From the IMG/VR virus record IMGVR_UViG_3300037264_002833, positions 1-20,076 of that record: a stretch of 20,076 nt of DNA; one strand, written 5' to 3'. The position numbers and the translations under genes were made by a program. The notes below the pieces were generated by a model. That model worked only from the letters and a program-made list of their open reading frames with translations. It made no database searches and was not told the origin of the DNA. This document shows, one piece after another, positions 1,756-19,482 of the stretch (position 1 is its first letter; every line of letters starts with the position of its first letter). This stretch comes from a virus.

Positions 1756-2766
1756 TTAGGTCTCCACCTCGACGCCGAACTCGGCCGCATTGAAGTCCGT
1801 CGAGTTCCACGCCGAGGCGTCCGGTTGCACGTCGTACTGCGAGTGCTGCCAGTCATAGGCGCCGGCCGCGTGCGTGAGGGCAGCCGAGTTGTCGACATCC
1901 GCCGCCACCTTCACGTAGTGCGAGATCGCGCGCGCCCCCGCGTCCGTGCGCTTGCCGTAGGTCGACACGGACACGAACGGAATCGACGCGATCGTGCCAG
2001 AGAGATTGCCGAAATCGAAGGAGGAAATCTGGCCCACCGTCGACGAGGCGATATAGGTCGTGTCATCGTCCGGGGTCGCGTCGTCAATCGCGGCGGCCCC
2101 TGTGCCCGTGTTCGGCGTCCACTGCGCCGTCGTGCCCGCGCCGGCTGCGACGACGTCGCGAATCCGCACCATGCCGAGCGGGGTATCATTCACACCGCCC
2201 GTCGCGTCAATCTGGTACAGGTCGCCGAGCGTGAAGGCCACTGTCGCCGAGGCGGCGGCGCCCTCCCCGAACCGGATTTGCGTCGCGTACTCGTTGGCCG
2301 TCTGGTTGGTATCCTGCACGGTGAGACTGATGTCCGTCGCTCCGTCCACGGCCACGTAGACTACGCCCGTTGTCGCGTCGACCGTGATGCCGACCTCGAC
2401 CCACCGATGCACGGCGCTATGGATGGTCGCTGTCCCTGACCCGAGCACGGTCGCCCCGCGCCGCGCCTCAATCTTCCCGTCCGTCCGCAGCCAGATTGAG
2501 CATTGTTCGGTCACGTCGTCCATCGCGCGGAGGATGCAACAGGGGCCAACGCCCTTGAGTGCGAATCCGACGACGAACGACGCTTCGTTCGCCAGCGCAC
2601 GACTCACGTAGCCCTGCGCGTTGGTGACGACGAGGCCCGCGTCGCCGAGCCGGCCGGCGCCAGCCGTGACGGCGAGCCCTGTCGTGACGCCAGGGCCACC
2701 GAAGAACGCCACCGACTGTGCGGCGGTCGTAAATCGGTTCCAGTTCATCGCAAGGCGGGCAGCCAT
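1756..2766 (-). CDS. LamG/concanavalin-like tail protein
   Basis: 336 residues from the ATG at 2766, preferred to an upstream in-frame ATG at 2847 because AGAGGGG (which includes the previous stop region) lies about eight bases before it. The first 190 residues have a lectin-sandwich look: 'YVSRALANEASFVVGFALKGV', 'SIWLRTDGKIEARRGATVLGSGTATIHSAVHRWVEVGI', 'VYVAVDGATDISL'. The rest is beta-rich with 'FPFVSVSTYGKRTDAGARAISHYVKV'-like strands and 'YDWQHSQYDVQPDASAWNSTDFNAAEFGVEV', a tail known from phage structural proteins. A sugar-binding tip or fibre component is likely. Follows the hub gene closely and ends five bases before the small repeat-protein start. Confidence 0.6.
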   Translation of the reverse strand: MAARLAMNWNRFTTAAQSVAFFGGPGVTTGLAVTAGAGRLGDAGLVVTNAQGYVSRALANEASFVVGFALKGVGPCCILRAMDDVTEQCSIWLRTDGKIEARRGATVLGSGTATIHSAVHRWVEVGITVDATTGVVYVAVDGATDISLTVQDTNQTANEYATQIRFGEGAAASATVAFTLGDLYQIDATGGVNDTPLGMVRIRDVVAAGAGTTAQWTPNTGTGAAAIDDATPDDDTTYIASSTVGQISSFDFGNLSGTIASIPFVSVSTYGKRTDAGARAISHYVKVAADVDNSAALTHAAGAYDWQHSQYDVQPDASAWNSTDFNAAEFGVEVET

Positions 2767-2779
2767 TGACGTAACCCCT

Positions 2780-5700
2780 CTAGGTGGCGGTAGTGTCGAA
2801 ATAGACGAGGAGATCCGCGAGCGTGCCCGCGGGATAGGTATTCGCAAGCGTGTAGTAGAGCGTCAGGCTCCCCGCCGACGCTGGCCCGAACGGCACGGGC
2901 GGCGACAGGACGAGAATCAGGGACGGCTCGGTCGTCGGGAGGACGACCTCGAGCGCGAGGCCAGAGGCCGGCGCATAGGCCGTATTGATCGCGCGCGTGA
3001 GGTCCGCCGTGCGCGAGGCCGCGTCGGTGTAGAGGCGCAGACGGCATGGGCTATTCGCCTCGACGCGCCACGCGCTCACCTGGCTCGTGGCCGTGAGCGT
3101 GATCGTGCCCGTCGTGCCGTCGATGCCCGTCGCGCCGGTCCCGTCGAGTGCGAGCGCGGTGATACTCGTGCGCGTGGTCCCGACGAGCGCCGGGAGGATG
3201 CCGCCCCACGGCATCACGCTCACGATGGGCGTCCACGCGGAGGGCGTGTAGGTGGCCGAGTATGCCTGCGCGCGGAAGAACCGCAGGCGGCCGTCGTTCG
3301 GGATAAAGTACCAGACGGCGAACACGTCGCCGATAAACGCCGTCTTGCCCTGCTGAAAACCGCCGCCCGCAGTGACGCTCACGGGCCAGGGGTCCGGAAT
3401 CCCCGACCCCACGGCGGTCTCGGCCACCATCTGAAAGACGATTTCGTGCGGGTACGGCACGGTCGGGAGCGTGACCGTCATGCCGACCGCATCCGGGGCC
3501 GAGATACTCGCGCCCGGCACATAGCCGGAGAACGCGCGCGGCGACGTCGGCTCGGCGAGCACAATGCCAGCGCCGGCGATCGTCGTCACAGTGTCCGCGA
3601 GCGTCGTCCCCACGGGCGTTGTGCTCGTGACGTCCATCAGCGACACCTCGACGTCATATTCAGTCAGCGCGAGGAGCGGGAGGAGCGTAATCTGTATCGA
3701 GCGGGGGCCGAGCAGGAGAAGCAAGGTCCAGGGCGTCGTGCCCGTGACGCGCGAGATGACGCGCACGATCGACGTCGTGTCGGAGTTCGTCCACGCGGCG
3801 ATGACATAGTTGCTGCTAATCGTCGGGAACGTGAGCGACGCGATGACACCAGGCGGCGCGGGCGGCGTCACGGGCGGCGGCAGCGTGCCGTCGTCCGGCC
3901 CCGTTTCCGCGTACCAGTAGGACCGCGCGCCCGGCGACCCGCCAGGGATCCACGCCTCGGCACTAATCCACGCGACGTTGTTGGGCGGGATAAAGCCCAT
4001 GTCGACCGCGTAGGTGTCCGACGTCGCCGCCCGCAGGTCGATCGTGCCGACATGGACGCCGCTGTCCGTCGGGGAGGCCGCCGTGTCCGGCGTCAGCGCG
4101 AAATACACGTCGAGGAGCGCGCCGACGGCCTGCAGCGCAAGCACGTTCGAGACGGTGATGGTGAGGACGTATTGCCCCTGCGCGATAGAGACGGCTGACA
4201 CCGCCACCGCCAGCGTGAACGGCACCGAGCACGGAACGCCGGAGCCCTCGTCGATACAGCGGAGCACATCGCCCGCCGGCTCGCGCGTGTGGCCGATAAT
4301 CCGGCGCGGGCGCAGTCCGCCCCGCTGCGCCGACGGATCCCGCCCCGGCTGCGCGTTCGGCTGGTGCACAGTCGCGTCAACGATGACGTCGCCGATCGTG
4401 CCAGCGGTGAACGGGCCGGCCAGAGTGAGACCCGTCTCGGGCGCCCCGCGCGCGAAGCGGTCGAATAACCGTTGCGCGATCCCCTGGATGTAGAACGCGC
4501 CATTGAGCGGCGTCGGTCCCGCAGTCGTGTTTCGCAGCCGGATGCCAGGCGACCCGACGATCGCGAGGTCGAGCGACTGCGAGCCATAGATGTCCCTATC
4601 CGGCGTCACGCCGTCCGACGTGTAGTCGATCTCATATGGCGCGTCGAAGGTCGCCATCATCGACGGTGGCCGGCGGTCGCGGTTCTCGAGCGTCGGCGTG
4701 CCGAACCCGGTAAACTGGTCAAAGGTCCACAGGTAGAGCTGCCGGATCGTGGCGGTGATGACGTTCCGGCGCGACGAGGCCGAGAGCGTCCACGTCGGCA
4801 CGCTGCCGAACCCGCGGAGGTCGTCCTCGGTCAGCGTCGCGACGCCGTCGGAGAGCCCGACCCGGTCGCGGGTCACGACGAGGCGCCGAGCGTTCGAGTT
4901 CGTCGCGAGCGTCACGGTCAGGCCGACGAACGCGCAGAGCGAGTCGATGAACTCCGCGACGGTTTGCGCCGGGTCGGTAAGCTGGCCGGTAATGATGAGG
5001 TCAGCGCCTAGCGCCGCAAGCGCGGCGTTGTACGCCGTGGCGTCGATGGCGACGTCAATCGCAGTCAGCGCGTTGTCAATTAGGAGCGCCGGGTGCCCCT
5101 GATACCAGAGCGGGAAGTCCTCCGACGGCGCGGTCGGCACGACCAGGACGAGGAACTCGGTGCCAACGGGCGCGACGGTGTCGATGTCGTCATCCTGCCA
5201 GCGGAGCGCTAGTTCGCTGCCGGTGCTGATAATGCGCCCGTGCGGCGTGTCGAATCCGTAGGGCGTCGCCGTCGTCACGAACGCGTTATCTGCCGCAGCG
5301 TACACGTAGGCGACGAGTTGCGAGAACTCGCCGCGGAGATCGCGGTCGCTGCCGTTCGGCATGTCGACGCGCTGCCCTGGCGTGTCAACGTAGAACGGCC
5401 GCGCGGCGCGGTTGACGTCATAGTATCCGCCGCCGCCGGGAAAGAGCGAGGGCGGATACCACCAGGAGCTTTGCCGCTCGAGAATCACCCACCCCGTTGT
5501 GTCACCAGGCGCGTTGCCCGTCACGACAAACCGCACGAGGCCATAGTCCGACATGTAGCCGTTGAGGCCGAGATAAATCGGCGTGCCGAACAGAGCCGTG
5601 GGTCGGAACTGCGGGCCGGCAGGCGTGTAGAGCGCGCCGATGCGCGTATTGCGCTCTCGGCGACGCGCGCCGCCGATCGTGATACTGTACGTCTGCGCCC

Positions 5701-11479: not shown

Positions 11480-12835
11480 TCAGCCGTCCTCGAAGCGGTA
11501 CAGTGCGCCGGCGCCGACGAGCGGGGCCGAGTCGTCCTCGAGGCGCCAGAGTGCGCCGGATCCGCCGGCTGGCGCCGCGTCGTCCTCGATGCGCCACAGC
11601 GTCTGCACGGCCACTGTCGGTACTCCGACAGCCCAGGTACTGACCGCCGGCAGCGGCTTGACCGTGCCAAGCCGAACCGACGAGGCCAGCACGACCCAAG
11701 TGCTGGCGCCCGCGGCCGGTTGAACCGTGACGCCGCCAGGCGTGGCCGTCGGGTCGTTGGCCGTCCACGCGGAAATGGCTGGCGCTGGCGTCAGGCTGGC
11801 GTTGGCGGCACGCGCAGGGTCGAGGGCTGTCCAGGTGCTGACCGCTGCCGCCGGGGCGACCGAGACGGCGGTCGTGACCGTTGGCGTCGGGATGGCCCAG
11901 GTCGAGACGCCGGCCGCGGGCGACACCGTGACCGCGACGGTGACGGTCGGCGTCGGGACCGCCCACGTCGAGACAGCAGGTGCCGGGGTCAGCCCCGTAC
12001 TCGCCGTCGCATCGAGCGCGGTCCACGTCGCAATGGCCGCCGCGGGCGAGGCGGTAACGGCTGCTGCGACGGTCGGCGTTGGGACGGCCCAGGTGCTCAC
12101 CGCCGGGGCAGGCGTCACGGCCGCGCTCACGCTCGCATCGAGCGCAGTCCACGTACTCACCGCGGCCGCTGGCGAGGCCGTGACCGCCGTCGTCACGGTC
12201 GGCGCTTGGGCCGCCCAGGTCGTAATCGCCGCGGCCGGGGCGACCGTGACTGCGAGCGTTATCGTCGGGTTGTTGGCCGTCCACGTCGAAATCGCTGCCG
12301 GCGGTGCGACGCTGACCGCTGCGGTAACTGCCGGCGCGGCACCGGTCCACGTACTGACCGCAGCCGGCGGACTTGCTGTCACACCGCCCGCAGTGACCGC
12401 GAGCGCGTTGGCGGTCCACGTCGCTACCGCTGCTGCGGGCGAGAGCGTGACCGCTGCGGCGCGCGCCGGATCGGTCGCGACCCACGCTGTGACCGCCGCG
12501 GCCGGCGAGACGGTGACGCCACCCGCTATGACGCTCGGGGCGTTGGCCGTCCACGTCGCGACCGCAGCGGATGGCGCGACCGTAACCGCACCGGCCACCG
12601 TTGGCGCGTTCGCGGTCCAGGTCGCAATCGCGGGCGCGGGCGAGACGGTAACGGCGCCCGCAGCCGTTGGCGCGTTCGCGGTCCAGGTCGTAACGGCCGG
12701 GGCCGGCGAGACGGTCACACCGCCGACCGCGACCGACGGGGCGCTGGCCGTCCACGTGCTGACGGCCGCCAACGGGTTGACCGTTAGCGCGCCAGTTGCA
12801 GACAGCGCGCCGAGGAATACGCGAAGGGTCGCCAC
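11480..12835 (-). CDS. Long tandem-repeat structural protein (18 Trp-centred repeats plus three short acidic repeats)
   Basis: 451 residues from a GTG at 12835 just after the previous stop; no strong ribosome site, so translation may be coupled. After an 18-residue lead (MATLRVFLGALSATGALT), residues 19-412 are 18 head-to-tail units of 20-23 residues with the consensus V-(T/S)-V-x-P-A-x-A-V-S-T-W-T-A-x-x-P-T-V, one Trp per unit. Residues 413-451 change to a different repeat, L-W-R-(I/L)-E-D-D-x-A-P, in three copies. The units are Ala, Val, Thr and Pro rich and should make beta strands, suggesting a rod or solenoid. I do not recognise a family. The minus frame is preferred over open plus-strand frames because all neighbours are on the minus strand and junctions are tight. 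A fibre, whisker or glycan-bearing stalk is possible. Confidence 0.65.
   Translation of the reverse strand: MATLRVFLGALSATGALTVNPLAAVSTWTASAPSVAVGGVTVSPAPAVTTWTANAPTAAGAVTVSPAPAIATWTANAPTVAGAVTVAPSAAVATWTANAPSVIAGGVTVSPAAAVTAWVATDPARAAAVTLSPAAAVATWTANALAVTAGGVTASPPAAVSTWTGAAPAVTAAVSVAPPAAISTWTANNPTITLAVTVAPAAAITTWAAQAPTVTTAVTASPAAAVSTWTALDASVSAAVTPAPAVSTWAVPTPTVAAAVTASPAAAIATWTALDATASTGLTPAPAVSTWAVPTPTVTVAVTVSPAAGVSTWAIPTPTVTTAVSVAPAAAVSTWTALDPARAANASLTPAPAISAWTANDPTATPGGVTVQPAAGASTWVVLASSVRLGTVKPLPAVSTWAVGVPTVAVQTLWRIEDDAAPAGGSGALWRLEDDSAPLVGAGALYRFEDG
11483..11599 (-). repeat. Three short acidic C-terminal repeats (LWR-x-EDD type)
   Basis: The last 39 codons of the repeat protein encode LWRIEDDAAPAGGSGA, LWRLEDDSAPLVGAGA and a truncated LYRFEDG. 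The unit is 16 residues (48 bases) and unrelated to the main array. It could be a capping or docking tail. Confidence 0.8.
11600..12781 (-). repeat. 18-unit protein-level tandem repeat, about 66 bases per unit
   Basis: The coding units span 20-23 codons each (394 codons in total) and differ at DNA level while keeping P-A-x-A-(V/I)-S-T-W at their centre. Units ending in GGVT are one residue longer; three short units lack the leading two residues (P-A-P-A-V-S-T-W-A-V and a K-P-L-P variant). Divergence between units suggests an old array kept by selection on protein shape. Confidence 0.85.
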
Positions 12836-13154: not shown

Positions 13155-14333
13155 TCAAATCCCGCAGATGAAGGAACGCGCAATAGGAGTCGCGACAGGA
13201 ACGGCCATGTAAATCACCTCTTGGCTTGCCGAGCGGTAGTACCTCGCGAACGGATGGCCGAGATACCACCGAGGACAGGTGATGAATTGCTTCATGTTGT
13301 CTCGAATGACGTTTGCCAGCGTTTCCGGTCCCCACGTCGTACCGCCGTCTTGCGATACTTTGCAATAGACGTTGACGCTGATAAAGATCTGAGACCCGTC
13401 GGACTTGCCGCCATAAAACACCCACCAAAACCCCGTTTGAAGATCAATACATACCGCCGCGAGCCCTTGGTCGTCTGTCGAGTTCAATACCACATTCGTC
13501 ATCTCAGTGATGCTCGACTCGGTGATCTTCCAAATCCTCAAGTCGGCATTTGCCGCGTCAACCGCGCTCCATGCGGCGAGGATGATCTGGCTATTGGTCA
13601 GGTCAACCGCTGCCGCCCAATGCGGATGTTGGTTCGCGGCAGTCGTATCCACCATGCCCGTCGCAATGGACGTTTCAGCCCACGTATTCGCGCTATCATC
13701 GTAGATGTACCGGGACACCTCGTCTGCATCCGCATCCCAGAACATCGCCATGATGTCCTGATTGTCAGCCGCGAAGCCCGGCACAAGGATGACTTGATCG
13801 AGCGTTGCCAGCGCTTCCGGCGAGGTCCGCGCCGCGTCCCATGCCCCGTTTGGGACGTTTGCGTTCGGCAATCGGTAGAAGCCGCCTTCTGCCCCCGCGT
13901 CGATCACACCATTGATGTAGACGTTGCCGCCGCGAGCCCGCGTAATGGAAAGTGACCCGCCAGCCGCTGTTGAGGTTCCTGCGCGGACCACGATCTCCGT
14001 CGAGAGCGCATCGCTCGATTCCGTGTTGACCGTCCGATAGCGAATGTCGTCGTTAGTCGACTCGATATGGGCAACGTGAATCAACCCTCCGGCCAGCCCG
14101 CTCCATTTGTCATACCAGACGGCGAGCGCCGTACCCGCGTTGATTGTGCCGACTTGCACCGGACTGCCCCATGTGACACCGTAATCCGTGGACTTCCGAT
14201 ACCAGACGGCGGTGCCGGTATTCAGGTAGAATGAATAGAGAGCCCCTGTCGCAATCTGCACGAGATAGTTCGTCCCGGCCCCGGTGTGTTCTGTCGCGGC
14301 GTAGGCCAGCAGGATATCCGAGTATTTCGGCAT
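13155..14333 (-). CDS. Asp-box (sialidase/BNR-like beta-propeller) virion protein, copy B
   Basis: 392 residues, start ATG at 14333, three bases after the stop of copy A. Asp-boxes are STDYGVTW (48-55) and SQDGGTTW (327-334). The middle of the protein is nearly identical to copy A (for example 'TALAVWYDKWSGLAGGLIH' is the same in both), while roughly the first 45 and last 55 residues differ. At DNA level a run of 40 bases, starting 'gactcggtgatcttcc' near 13516 and near 14700, is shared exactly. This points to a tandem duplication followed by change at the ends. The ends may determine attachment or ligand choice; that is inference. Function as for copy A is unproven. Confidence 0.65.
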   Translation of the reverse strand: MPKYSDILLAYAATEHTGAGTNYLVQIATGALYSFYLNTGTAVWYRKSTDYGVTWGSPVQVGTINAGTALAVWYDKWSGLAGGLIHVAHIESTNDDIRYRTVNTESSDALSTEIVVRAGTSTAAGGSLSITRARGGNVYINGVIDAGAEGGFYRLPNANVPNGAWDAARTSPEALATLDQVILVPGFAADNQDIMAMFWDADADEVSRYIYDDSANTWAETSIATGMVDTTAANQHPHWAAAVDLTNSQIILAAWSAVDAANADLRIWKITESSITEMTNVVLNSTDDQGLAAVCIDLQTGFWWVFYGGKSDGSQIFISVNVYCKVSQDGGTTWGPETLANVIRDNMKQFITCPRWYLGHPFARYYRSASQEVIYMAVPVATPIARSFICGI

Positions 14334-14336
14334 CGG

Positions 14337-15524
14337 TCAGGGGGCTCCGAGGAACGAGCGCGCCGGAAGCGGCACCCCGTACCATGCCGCGATGAAAATG
14401 AAATCACTCGCCAAGCTCCGCCAAATCCTCACGACCGGGAATCCCAGATACAGCCGGGGACACGCGATGAGGGACTTAACGTTGTCAAGAGTCACGTTGA
14501 ATTGTGTCTCGGCTCCCCACGTCGTACCACCATCTGTTGATACTTTGCAGTAGATGTTCACGGTGCTAAAGACCTGAGACCCATCAGACTTCCCACCGTA
14601 AAACACCCACCAGAAACCGGTTTGGAGGTCGAGCGTAATCGCACAGAAACCTTGATCGTCCGTCGAGTTCAAGACCACGTTCGTCATCTCGGTGATGCCC
14701 GACTCGGTGATCTTCCAAATCCTCAAGTCGGCATTTGCCGTGTCAACGGCGCTCCATGCGGCGAGGATGATCTGGCTGTTCGTGAGATCGACCGCCACGT
14801 TCCAATGAGGGAAGTGGCTGGCGGCTGATACGTCGCTCATGCTCGTCGCGATGGACGTTTCGGCCCATGTGTTCGCACTGTCGTCGTAGATATATCGGGA
14901 AACTTCATTCGCGTCCGCATCCCAGAACATCGCCATGATGTCCTGATTGTCAGCCGCGAAGCCGGGGACGAGATAGACCTGATCGAGTGTTGCTAACGCC
15001 TCCGGCGAAGTCCTTGCTGCATCCCATGCCCCGTTCGGAACATTCGCGTTTGGCAGTCGGAAGAACCCACCTTCCGTGCCTGCATCGATCACACCGTTGA
15101 CGTAGACATTCCCGCCGAGAGCGCGGGTGATCGACAGCGACCCACCAGCCAACGTCGAGGCCCCCGCAAACACGGTCGTTTCAGTCGAAAGCGCGTCGCT
15201 GGACTCGGTATTGATCGTGCGGTAGCGGATGTCGTCGTTGCCGGATTCGGCATAGGCGAAATGGATCAGGCCCCCCGCCAACCCGCTCCATTTGTCGTAC
15301 CACACAGCGAGCGCCGTCGGGTTGTTCAACCCACCCACTGTCGTCGGGAAGGACCATGTGAGTCCGTAATCTGTGGACTTCTTGAAAACGACAGCCGGTT
15401 GACTGTTTAGACCCAACAAGTACCACACACCAGCCGGGGTCTGGACGAGATGAACCGTACCCGCCCCGGACCACTCAGTTGTACCGCCAGTGTGCACGAC
15501 CATCTGATCCATCTTACGCGGCAT
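14337..15524 (-). CDS. Asp-box (sialidase/BNR-like beta-propeller) virion protein, copy A
   Basis: 395 residues, ATG at 15524 with AAGGA six bases upstream, overlapping the end region of the previous gene's stop. Two Asp-boxes of the S-x-D-x-G-x-T-W type are visible: STDYGLTW at 50-57 and STDGGTTW at 329-336. Between them are aromatic strands such as 'ALAVWYDKWSGLAGGLIH' and 'QDIMAMFWDADANEVSRYIYDD', fitting a propeller. No catalytic Arg triad or F-R-I-P of true sialidases is recognisable, so binding rather than cleavage is more likely. It has no signal peptide, which fits a virion part assembled in the cytoplasm. The next gene is a close paralogue. Local base composition looks lower in GC than the neighbouring tail genes, suggesting recent acquisition. 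A receptor-binding or capsid-decorating role is inferred. Confidence 0.65.
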   Translation of the reverse strand: MPRKMDQMVVHTGGTTEWSGAGTVHLVQTPAGVWYLLGLNSQPAVVFKKSTDYGLTWSFPTTVGGLNNPTALAVWYDKWSGLAGGLIHFAYAESGNDDIRYRTINTESSDALSTETTVFAGASTLAGGSLSITRALGGNVYVNGVIDAGTEGGFFRLPNANVPNGAWDAARTSPEALATLDQVYLVPGFAADNQDIMAMFWDADANEVSRYIYDDSANTWAETSIATSMSDVSAASHFPHWNVAVDLTNSQIILAAWSAVDTANADLRIWKITESGITEMTNVVLNSTDDQGFCAITLDLQTGFWWVFYGGKSDGSQVFSTVNIYCKVSTDGGTTWGAETQFNVTLDNVKSLIACPRLYLGFPVVRIWRSLASDFIFIAAWYGVPLPARSFLGAP

Positions 15525-16002: not shown

Positions 16003-16356
16003 TCAGGGAGTCGCAAGCACGAGTTCGGCGTTCCGTTCCGCGTGGACCTGCAGCTCGTCGCGGCCGTACTGCCGCGCGAGGACGGCGCGAATCACGAACG
16101 ATTCGCCATCGCAGAGAATGGCGCCGTCGACCTGCGCCGGCGCGACCGCGGCGAACCCGAACACCGCGTCGACGTGATGCGCGGGCGCGGCGCCGACCGT
16201 GGTCTCGCGACCCGTGGGCGACACCTTCGAGCACCACCACAACTCGTCCGGATCCGACGAGGGGAGCGTCTGGTACGCCGAGTCGACCGCGCCCGCGGTG
16301 CCGGCCTCGACGTAGGCGAACAACTGCGCGCGATAGCGCCGCAGGCTCGCGCTCAC
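16003..16356 (-). CDS. Head-tail joining protein (phage head-tail adaptor family)
   Basis: 117 residues from a GTG at 16356 that overlaps the methyltransferase stop as GTGA. The frame is open further upstream, but that part is arginine-rich shadow of the methyltransferase gene. Visible pattern: N-terminal 'SLRRYRAQLFAYVEAGTAGAVDSAYQ', a 'WWCSKVSPTGRET' strand, 'QVDGAILCDGESFVIRAVLARQYGRDELQVHAERN' with the 'D.i..dg..y.I..v' shape, and a short hydrophobic tail. This is the usual length and layout of the small beta-barrel neck proteins (HK97 gp7 / SPP1 gp16 type) that close the connector after DNA packaging. The order capsid-connector-joining protein supports it, apart from the two inserted enzymes. 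Confidence 0.65.
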   Translation of the reverse strand: MSASLRRYRAQLFAYVEAGTAGAVDSAYQTLPSSDPDELWWCSKVSPTGRETTVGAAPAHHVDAVFGFAAVAPAQVDGAILCDGESFVIRAVLARQYGRDELQVHAERNAELVLATP

Positions 16357-17555
16357 GGACGCCACGCCACGATGGCGGAGAACGATTGCTTGAACCGGTC
16401 GCTCCGGGAGCGGTAGTCGCTCAGGATGTGCCAATCGGCGAACTGCGCCGTGAGCCATTCGCTCGTCAGGCTGTGCGGGTGGTGCTCCGCGACCGGCGTA
16501 TCGACCCAATCGAACCAGCGCACGACGCGCGCGTGGCGCTTGGCCGTGGCGAGCACCGCCGCCGGGTCGAGGACATGCTGCAGGACGTTGTAGCCCCAAG
16601 CCTCGTCACACACCCCCCCCGCGTAGTCCTCCGCCGTCATCTGCACGCGCGTCATGTTCAAGCGCGAGACGATCCCCGTCTCGACGTGCGGCAGCGGGTC
16701 GACGACGGTATACGCCTTGAGCGGCAGGGCATAGAGGACCGCGAGCGGCATGGGACCGCCGCCGATATCGAGCACCGTGAGGCCCTCGGTCGAGGCCGCC
16801 GTTATCCCGAGCCACTCCGCGTAGAGTGCGTCGAGTTCGCGGCACAGTGCCGTGCGGTCGGCCCCGGCCCAGAACTCCAATTCGCCAGCTTGGGCCGCGG
16901 CCCATCGCTCGTCCGAAATCGCGTCAATGCGTTGCACGATACCCGTCCCTCGCCGCGTCAGCACCCAGGCCTCGTCACTGCTCTCGCCGGGGAACACCTG
17001 CCGGGCCGTGATGTCGAAGCCGGCCGCGTGGAGTTCGGCCTTCACGCGGCTCCGGTCGAACGTGTGACAGTGGACGCCTTCCCACACCTCGGAGCGCGCC
17101 GCGCCGGGCGGCCGGTACCAAGTGAGGACGACGACGCGACGCGCGGCCGCGAGGACCAGCGACAGCGCGGGCTGCAGGTCCGGCTGATGCTCGAGGACGT
17201 GGCGCGCATACACGACGTCGGCCGACAGCGGCGGGAGGTCGCTCAGCGTGAGGTTCCGCCAGGTCGACTCCGCGAACCGCTCGCGCAGGGCCTCACACAG
17301 CGTCCGCGACCCTTCATGCGCGCGGTATTTGATGAGCCCCGCCAGCGCATACTCGCGGAAATGGCGCTCGTAATCGACGCCAGGGCCAGGGCCGACTTCC
17401 GTCAGCGTGCCGTCGCCGGCGACGGCGGCCTCGAGCGCGCGCTCGGTGGCCCACGCGCGCGACGGGTTCTCCCAATCGTGGTCGAGGAACGTTGCCGGAT
17501 TGACTGAATCCCAATAGCGGAAGTTCGGCGCGGTCATCGGGCTCGGTGCCGTCAT
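16353..17555 (-). CDS. Two-domain class I SAM-dependent methyltransferase
   Basis: 400 residues with two Rossmann-type methyltransferase units. Domain 1: glycine loop 'LTEVGPGPGVDYERHF' (51-66) and 'DVVYARHVLEH' (113-123), then 'VWEGVHCHTFDRSRVKAELHAAGF' (157-180). Domain 2: 'LTVLDIGGGPMPLAVLY' (259-275), the acidic strand end 'VVDPL' (284-288), and 'AWGYNVLQHVLDP' (319-331). Between them, 'ERWAAAQAGELEFWAG' (216-231) resembles the 'W..AQ..E..FW' stretch found near sugar and lipopolysaccharide methyltransferases. Reaction: methyl transfer from S-adenosylmethionine; acceptor unknown. It overlaps the connector gene (ATGA) and the head-tail joining gene (GTGA). The N-terminus repeats MTAP, so an ATG at 17537 is a second possible start; neither has a clear ribosome site. 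DNA methylation is less likely because no DPPY or PCQ motif is seen. Confidence 0.75.
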   Translation of the reverse strand: MTAPSPMTAPNFRYWDSVNPATFLDHDWENPSRAWATERALEAAVAGDGTLTEVGPGPGVDYERHFREYALAGLIKYRAHEGSRTLCEALRERFAESTWRNLTLSDLPPLSADVVYARHVLEHQPDLQPALSLVLAAARRVVVLTWYRPPGAARSEVWEGVHCHTFDRSRVKAELHAAGFDITARQVFPGESSDEAWVLTRRGTGIVQRIDAISDERWAAAQAGELEFWAGADRTALCRELDALYAEWLGITAASTEGLTVLDIGGGPMPLAVLYALPLKAYTVVDPLPHVETGIVSRLNMTRVQMTAEDYAGGVCDEAWGYNVLQHVLDPAAVLATAKRHARVVRWFDWVDTPVAEHHPHSLTSEWLTAQFADWHILSDYRSRSDRFKQSFSAIVAWRP

Positions 17556-18157
17556 GGGACGCGGACCACTACCCAGGGGGCGATGAGGTCACGCACGCGC
17601 GACGGGAGTCCACCCGTGTAACTGGTCGACACGCCACCGCCGGCCGTTTCGCTCGTCGCGGCCGGCGAGCGGCGCTGGTAGAGGTCCGCTGCCGCGTCGA
17701 GAATCGCCTGGAACAGCGCCGGCTCGATGCGCGCCGCATATGCGGCGTCGGCCGCGAGCCCGCAGTTCACCGTGACGGTATAGGGCGGGTTGTCGAACGT
17801 GATGCCGGGCCGCGCGCGGATGAGCGACTCCCAGGCCACCGGCTCGCGGTAATCCACGTCGGGGTCGAGCACCGTACCGTCTACGTCCTCGACGACGGGA
17901 TCCGTCACCGCGGACGAGGCGGCCGCGACCTCGAGCGGCAGATACTGCGGCGGGATGAGGATGACGCGAACCGGTCGATACGTCGTGCCGTTCTCGCAGT
18001 GGTCGACGAACGTGCGTTCCGTCACCTCGATGTCGCGCCCTAACGCCCCGCGCACGGCGGCCTCAGCCGAGGCCAGGAGCGCCGCGAGCAGCGTATCCTC
18101 GGCCGTGTCCTGGATCCGGAGATACGCCTTCACGTCCGACAGGCCAGGCAGCGCCAT
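17552..18157 (-). CDS. Head-tail connector protein (phage gp6-like / phiE125 gp8-like family)
   Basis: 201 residues. The start is the ATG at 18157, which shares a base with the TAA of the glycosyltransferase gene (TAATG) and follows a strong GGAGGAG five bases upstream. The N-terminus 'LSDVKAYLRIQDTAEDTLLAALLASAEAAV' is the helical signature of gp6/gp15-type connectors (short helix, 'D..ed.ll..li..A...ve..'), followed by 'YLPLEVAAASSAVTDP' and a beta-rich middle, then a C-terminal helix 'LFQAILDAAADLYQRRSP', also usual in the family. These proteins form a ring under the portal that receives the next neck ring. The gene ends in ATGA, overlapping the methyltransferase start, so the three genes are probably translationally coupled. 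Recognised by pattern, not by a database search. Confidence 0.75.
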   Translation of the reverse strand: MALPGLSDVKAYLRIQDTAEDTLLAALLASAEAAVRGALGRDIEVTERTFVDHCENGTTYRPVRVILIPPQYLPLEVAAASSAVTDPVVEDVDGTVLDPDVDYREPVAWESLIRARPGITFDNPPYTVTVNCGLAADAAYAARIEPALFQAILDAAADLYQRRSPAATSETAGGGVSTSYTGGLPSRVRDLIAPWVVVRVP

Positions 18158-19482
18158 TACGTCTCCTCCGGCCGGGTGGTGTAGACGTCCTCGCGCCCGA
18201 GCCAGCGCGCGAGCATCCCCTCGTAGCGCCGCGCCACGGCGGGATAATCGTGATAGGCGCGCACATAGGCGTGGACGCGCGCCGCCTCGGCGTGATAGTA
18301 GGCGCGGTCGACGACCAGGCGCTCGATCACCTGCTCGAGCCCGCGCTCGTCGTTCGCGTAGGTGTAGGGCACCTGCCCGACGTGCTGCCGGTACAGCGCG
18401 GCGACGTCCGGGTCGCCGGCGATGACCGGATGACCCATCGCGCCGCCCTCGAGACCCGACGTCTGGATCCCGAGCCAGAACGAGTCGAACGTCGCGTCGC
18501 ACGTGCCCTTGCGCTCAAGCGCCACGTTCTGCGGTAGCGTCTCCATGAGGACCGGGATGACCCGGAGGCCGCGCGTGTTCAACTTGTCGCAGACGCGCAA
18601 GAATACGTCCGTACCCTTATTCGCGCGCTTCGTCGGGCAGTGCGCGATACGGAACGCGCCCTCGGGACTCGTCGCCGGGCGTACCGTCGGGAGCGCGCGG
18701 TAGCGGTCGACCGGGACCGTGATCGGAAGCCACTGGATCTCGACCGGCTCGCCAAGCTCGCGCGCCAGGCGCTCCGCCTCCTCGTAGAAGGTCAGCCGGG
18801 CGCCGACGAGTTTCGCCCACAGCGCCTTGTCTTTCCGCGCCTCGATGTGCGTCCACCAGCCGAGGTGCGCCGCATCCTCCTTTCGCACCGACCCGTGATA
18901 GTGCCGCACGAGCAACTGGCCGCCCTTGCGCGCGAGGCCGACGTTATTGAGCAGCATGTAATCGACGTGGCAGTGGATCACGTCCGCCTCGAGGATCGCC
19001 TGGCGCGTGACCGCCGCGTGCTTCTCGCCGTCGTACTGACGCAGCGACGAATACGGGTTCGAGTCTGCGAACCGGATAAACGCCGACGCGTGCTTCGTGG
19101 TCGCGAGCGCGGAGTGGAACCGATAGGCCGCGCTGCCGGGATCGTAGCCGCAGCCCTGGACAATCCTGAGCGCGCCCTCGGTGGGCTCCCGATAGGCGAC
19201 CTCCTCGACGTCGTCGATCCACGGCGACAGCACGCGACCGGGTGCGCCGTACCAGTTCACGGCGCGACTGTTCACGCGATAGACGATCCCGCGCACTTCT
19301 GCGCGCAGCGCCGCCTCCTCCTCCATCCAATACTGCTGACCGGGGAGATAGCGGATCCGCACGTCGCCGCCCCGAGTCGGCGCCGCCCCGTGTTTATGCG
19401 GCACAATCGCCGCGACGAGCACCGTGCCGGGAGGTTGTCCCCCCGGCACGGTGCTACCCTGGCGGTGGATCGCATCTCGCAT
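18157..19482 (-). CDS. GT-B fold glycosyltransferase (GT4-like) embedded in the head operon
   Basis: 441 residues from the ATG at 19482, chosen because GGAGGAG (19489-19495) lies six bases upstream. An ATG at 19509 overlapping the capsid stop would add nine residues but has no clear ribosome site. Numbering from 19509: an N-terminal half with 'EADVIHCHVDYMLLNN' (174-189) resembling the end of a GT-B acceptor domain; then 'AFRIAHCPTKRANKGTDVFL' (285-304), the usual opening of the donor domain; then 'FWLGIQTSGLEGGAMGHPVIA' (344-364), the GT4-type stretch where a Glu (354) and a Gly-Pro-Val contact the nucleotide-sugar. Known members move a sugar from a nucleotide donor to a protein, lipid or glycan. 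It sits between the capsid and connector genes and ends in TAATG, sharing one base with the connector start. Target unknown: virion protein glycosylation or host surface-glycan modification are both possible. No signal peptide or membrane segment seen. Confidence 0.8.
   Translation of the reverse strand: MRDAIHRQGSTVPGGQPPGTVLVAAIVPHKHGAAPTRGGDVRIRYLPGQQYWMEEEAALRAEVRGIVYRVNSRAVNWYGAPGRVLSPWIDDVEEVAYREPTEGALRIVQGCGYDPGSAAYRFHSALATTKHASAFIRFADSNPYSSLRQYDGEKHAAVTRQAILEADVIHCHVDYMLLNNVGLARKGGQLLVRHYHGSVRKEDAAHLGWWTHIEARKDKALWAKLVGARLTFYEEAERLARELGEPVEIQWLPITVPVDRYRALPTVRPATSPEGAFRIAHCPTKRANKGTDVFLRVCDKLNTRGLRVIPVLMETLPQNVALERKGTCDATFDSFWLGIQTSGLEGGAMGHPVIAGDPDVAALYRQHVGQVPYTYANDERGLEQVIERLVVDRAYYHAEAARVHAYVRAYHDYPAVARRYEGMLARWLGREDVYTTRPEET
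19418..19455 (-). promoter_or_regulatory. Perfect 14-bp inverted repeat just downstream of the capsid gene
   Basis: The arms are 19418-19431 and 19442-19455, exact reverse complements with a 10-base loop. In mRNA the stem begins 53 bases after the capsid stop codon, inside the first codons of the glycosyltransferase gene (encoding STVPGGQPPGTVL). No U-run follows, so it is not a classical intrinsic terminator. A stable hairpin here could protect the 3' end of capsid mRNA or lower read-through into the next genes. That role is inference; the inverted repeat is directly visible. Confidence 0.55.

Follow-up and report, generated by a model that had tools for sequence, protein, structure and literature searches.

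The window analysed here is the whole of the virus fragment IMGVR_UViG_3300037264_002833, 20,076 bases long, in which all genes identified lie on the minus strand. Read along that strand, an HK97-type capsid gene is followed by a GT-B glycosyltransferase (GT), a connector, a two-domain SAM methyltransferase (MT) and a conserved unnamed protein (Table 1). The same order had been given in an initial annotation and was confirmed here by family matches and, for the GT, by its fold. The N-terminus of the capsid protein is missing, as the record ends inside the gene; its full-length homologue in the related locus L002 (L designates related loci throughout) comprises 453 amino acids and is 72% identical across the shared part.

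Table 1. Features of the head-gene segment of the window.
Feature	Coordinates	Strand	Basis
HK97-fold major capsid protein, C-terminal 188 aa	19509..20075	-	Pfam Phage_capsid, E 7.4e-12
Predicted soluble GT-B (GT4-like) glycosyltransferase, 450 aa	18157..19509	-	Predicted structure and weak GT-family matches of relatives
DUF7210-like domain at the GT N-terminus (approximate limits)	19270..19426	-	Subthreshold DUF7210 matches in relatives
Head-tail connector (gp6-like adaptor)	17552..18157	-	Pfam PF05135 (Phage_connect_1), 8e-12; PHROG 442 head-tail adaptor, 2e-16
Fused double class I SAM methyltransferase	16353..17555	-	N half Methyltransf_23, 2e-13; C half phrog_3603, 2e-16
Small conserved protein after the connector slot ("joining protein")	16003..16356	-	Homologues in related loci

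The genes are tightly joined, as had been noted initially: the junctions capsid/GT (TGATG, overlap -1), GT/connector (TAATG, -1), connector/MT (ATGA, -4) and MT/"joining protein" (GTGA, -4) all overlap, and the following gene, which has a GAGG ribosome site, starts at a distance of +26 nt. These junctions place both enzymes for co-expression with the head genes, in agreement with the earlier proposal. Since most other gaps in the window measure 0-29 nt, a compact spacing common there, the overlaps are read as likely co-expression and as nothing special beyond that. For the "joining protein", the name given initially found no counterpart in a family match (Pfam, PHROG or NCBIfam); its place was borne out by the related loci, 71 of 85 of which have a homologue behind the connector, and it is probably a head-closure or adaptor protein.

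Elsewhere in the window, two tandem paralogous BNR-like propeller proteins (13155-14333 and 14337-15524, minus strand) share 73% identity as a whole and hardly differ in their central part, which suggests a recent duplication or gene conversion. A protein of ~22-residue repeats is encoded at 11480-12835 (minus strand; units of 66 bases at 12492-12715 and of 48 bases at 11485-11599). A small ORF at 1526-1681 contains a 51-base repeat in approximately three copies (93% match) and specifies repeated 'AWVTAEPVFVVHEATPE' peptides.

Structure prediction upheld the initial assignment of both enzymes. The GT has a small DUF7210-like domain at about residues 28-80, and its AlphaFold model (pLDDT 86.5) displays over residues 111-440 a GT-B (two-Rossmann) fold, which aligns with GT4 enzymes over ~300 residues (VIA-align, Z ~20-23). 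Matches included T4 AGT (Z 22.7), BshA (22.6) and PimA (21.5); rows within 1 Z count as tied, and the top rows are essentially tied. While the GT-B fold is shared with PimA, BshA, MshA and T4 AGT, the window GT is 11-18% identical to these enzymes, apparently has Leu at the first Glu of the EX7E motif and carries an additional N-terminal domain. Searches with its sequence in Pfam, PHROGs, NCBIfam and the sequences of the PDB gave no match, and no relative was found among 50,697 phage records when the window GT and two divergent family members served as queries. The family is common in uncultured viral contigs (122 matches with the family profile, 80 kept) and spans identities down to ~33%; 14 of 31 relatives weakly matched Glyco_trans_1_4. 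The only members found in cellular assemblies, L019 in a Burkholderiales MAG and L018 in a Gemmatimonadetes MAG, hint at hosts, with the proviso that MAG binning may mislead. Moreover, an extra domain upstream of the GT is present in L011 (9146-11086), L035 (880-2895) and L012 (2441-4198), matching family-2 glycosyltransferases in the former two, and L005 features a 214-aa ORF between capsid and GT (2385-3029) that looks GIY-YIG homing endonuclease-like by eye.

Across 31 divergent members of the family, H205, K298, D342, Q349 and D366 are invariant, and catalysis by the predicted enzyme appears plausible. The EX7E motif is incomplete: in a register taken from a weak hhalign alignment, the first Glu is replaced by Leu346 in 31/31 members, and the second (E354) is present in 30/31. 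We therefore refer to the protein as GT4-like and not as a GT4 member. This family-wide replacement, together with an N-terminal domain that outlasts the GT domain (see below), could also indicate that the fold was kept as a non-catalytic part of the head, e.g., as a structural, chaperone, decoration or assembly factor. The large number of polar residues that are invariant within the GT-B domain, the repeated association of other sugar enzymes and an unrelated GT family in the same interval of other phages argue against this explanation, which we consider quite improbable.

In most family members, a short domain resembling DUF7210 precedes the GT-B domain. The best match to DUF7210 (PF23843) reached 24.1 bits, below the curated cut-off of 27, and the sub-cut-off matches share one position, the GT N-terminus, in about a dozen loci. 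As the matches stay under the Pfam cut-off and their place is consistent, the domain is called "DUF7210-like" only. It is modular: in L098 and L133 the GT domain is lost, and what is left between capsid and connector is an ORF for the N-terminal domain alone, which in L098 matches DUF7210 by itself (E 5e-4). A stand-alone form of 91 aa exists in L158. Comparison of the lone domains of L098 and L133 gave a dN/dS of ~0.28, i.e., purifying selection, and the DUF7210-like domain consequently appears to have a separate function for which it is retained. A search for a described function of DUF7210 returned none. The TMCBR2 protein located between capsid and connector (P0008) was also considered as a homologue of this domain and rejected; it looks alike by eye, a profile failed to set it apart from shuffled sequences, and Pfam reported no DUF7210.

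The position of the GT is strongly conserved. Both flanks were identified in 73 related loci; in 69 of these, nothing but the GT separates the capsid gene from the connector gene, and the other four have additional sequence within this interval. Pairwise GT distances correlate with those of the capsid (r 0.82) and of the connector (r 0.90), capsid and connector correlate with each other at r 0.93, and permutation maxima were ~0.33 or less. Conserved position and co-divergence thus characterize the GT as a head-operon member of long inheritance, not as cargo, and rule out a recent insertion. The initial view of both enzymes as inserts of one kind needs correction: the GT keeps its place, and variability is confined to the MT. 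A capsid-based scan of 80 loci found the GT in 59 and absent from 17 (four were too short), which means that the enzyme is dispensable. In the capsid tree, which was built quickly, has several weakly supported branches and includes two outgroups that are very remote, the rows without GT are of two kinds, namely outer lineages, in which the connector follows the capsid at a distance of ~22-89 nt, and L098/L133, which lie within the GT-carrying part and are enclosed by branches with support 96 and 99.

These observations also bear on the idea that GT and MT alter a polysaccharide or lipid of the host surface late in infection, with the linkage to head genes serving late expression only. Possible gains would be a block of superinfection or the escape of released virions from trapping. 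GT4 enzymes frequently act at membranes, and the structural neighbours PimA, BshA and PglA use small-molecule or lipid acceptors. However, the window GT has no predicted membrane segment (maximal 19-residue hydropathy 0.87; relatives 0.74-1.94), its capsid-connector position is strict and accompanied by co-divergence, and its N-terminal domain persists alone between head genes. A classical seroconversion set (GtrA/GtrB by integrase) was likewise not noticed around the GT on incidental inspection. Taken together, we regard an action on the host surface as unlikely.

The MT is composed of two fused class I SAM MT domains (about residues 1-204 and 212-400), whose models matched 3e23 (N half, Z 17.1) and 8x8j (C half, Z 14.9) and which both contain the motif I glycine loop (EVGPGPG and LDIGGGP, respectively). 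The N-terminal half matches general methyltransferase families of the small-molecule type, and structures of that kind were matched by both halves. The MT is an accessory, and the slot between the connector and the next gene is variable. In L002 and L014, the two domains fused in frame in the window are encoded by separate, overlapping genes; L004 has the first domain (MTn) only, followed by a GT2, and L020 the second (MTc) alone, while L003 is devoid of MT and features a GT2, behind which another GT2-like gene begins (as judged by eye). Scans for single-domain MTs were positive for the L002 and L014 contigs alone. Other GT-carrying members have an MT or GT2 immediately ahead of the terminase gene. 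In total, 19 of 27 records with GT contain an MT or GT2 gene vs. one of 10 without, a weak enrichment that lacks significance in the strictest test (Fisher p 0.27 for records of at least 20 kb, Poisson p 0.03, both ignoring relatedness). Most loci with GT have no MT in the slot, which rules out an obligate pair. What stands of the pairing emphasized in the initial annotation is that GT and MT genes adjoin head genes in many relatives and also in some phages without relation to the window; a fixed pair they are not, the MT being accessory, split or replaced by a GT2.

The rank of T4 AGT at the top of the VIA-align matches could point to DNA glucosylation, as performed by the T4 alpha-glucosyltransferase, with the MT acting on the base or the sugar. 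However, the tie with BshA means that the GT-B fold alone is indicated by this match, and the small-molecule character of the families and structures matched by the MT also speaks against a DNA target. Furthermore, 22 viral records, several of them possibly incomplete, contained no gene of the thymidylate synthase/dCMP-hydroxymethylase family (Thymidylat_synt). DNA modification is therefore disfavoured and, in our estimate, highly improbable.

Glycosyltransferases in the capsid-to-neck interval also occur in phages of cultured hosts. Pontimonas phage phiPsal1 displays the order capsid, GT4, MT, GT2 and neck protein, and in Microcystis phage Mae-JY09 the capsid is followed by an unassigned gene, a GT4, an unassigned gene, a sugar epimerase, a further unassigned gene and the adaptor. 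As in the window, a GT is thus located between capsid and neck or adaptor, accompanied by MT and GT2 in phiPsal1 or by a nucleotide-sugar epimerase in Mae-JY09. The two GT4s are related to each other (36%), but no sequence relation to the window GT was detectable, and the phiPsal1 enzyme, unlike some relatives of the window GT, has no DUF7210 match. The paper on phiPsal1 contains no discussion of these genes. Occupation of this interval by two GT families that are unrelated to each other, both together with sugar enzymes, favours a target in the head or neck.

Virion glycosylation in mycobacteriophages (Che8, cluster O) was reportedly described by Freeman et al. in 2023. The annotated GTs of Che8, a phage with a reportedly glycosylated capsid, are genes 108-110 at 56-58.7 kb, i.e., ~50 kb from the capsid gene at 5.1 kb, whereas the window GT is wedged between capsid and connector; the initial generalization that known glycosylated virions have their GTs near structural genes is contradicted by this genome. 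Che8 gp108, the one Che8 GT compared, has no detectable similarity to the window GT family (hhalign probability 0.5%), and the window GT further differs from the mycobacteriophage type by its DUF7210-like domain. Two publications report mycobacteriophage capsids to be glycosylated with phage-encoded GTs (PMC11600133, PMC11256854). In cluster O, three GTs adjoin an O-methyltransferase and are stated to modify capsid and tail tube (PMC11600133), a vicinity of phage GTs and methyltransferase that resembles the MT-carrying locus of the window. In cyanophage ACG-2014f, gp017, a homologue of the C-terminal MT half, likewise lies beside a GT among structural genes, but at a tail-fibre site and not at the head, as a single-domain MT, next to a different GT and with a 2OG oxygenase also adjoining. 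The proposed function hence resembles a known one, while gene layout, enzyme family and domain fusion differ.

On balance, we favour, as reasonably probable, a module for glycosylation of the virion, most likely of its head, with optional methyl capping. Following this proposal, the predicted GT-B enzyme would be made together with capsid and connector. Its N-terminal domain would tether it to the nascent head, where the enzyme could draw on a nucleotide-sugar of the host to glycosylate a head protein, possibly in O-linkage; the major capsid protein is the most likely acceptor. The two MT domains might then methylate this sugar, thereby capping or diversifying it, and in relatives a GT2 in the MT slot would add a second sugar. 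The phage could benefit from a shield or from an altered surface for adsorption or persistence. In favour of virion glycosylation are the conserved GT position (69/73) and co-divergence, the GT-B fold with its invariant residues and the lone N-terminal domain in L098/L133. The exchangeable MT/GT2 slot, the frequency of such genes in GT-carrying records, the unrelated GT4s of phiPsal1 and Mae-JY09 and the precedent stated for cluster O (PMC11600133) point in the same direction. Against it count the lost EX7E Glu, the absence of the GT from 17/80 loci, the weak MT/GT2 enrichment and the sub-cut-off DUF7210 matches, as well as a linkage to head genes that would be expected of any late gene.

A more specific and clearly more tentative version, which we would not yet put on a par with virion glycosylation as such, is a head-docked GT: a conserved head-operon domain fused to a GT-B enzyme might allow glycosylation of the capsid as it assembles, in a broad group of phages that are mostly uncultured, and an exchangeable MT/GT2 cassette might rewrite the virion glycan. 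Should this be the case, glycosylation of the virion would be inherited along with head morphogenesis, as a part of it, across a large group of uncultured phages instead of being a rare trait of actinobacteriophages, and exchange at one gene slot would bring variation to the sugar coat. Gene order would then offer a way to predict particle surface chemistry, and natural relatives with and without the GT would permit testing of the role of the coat.
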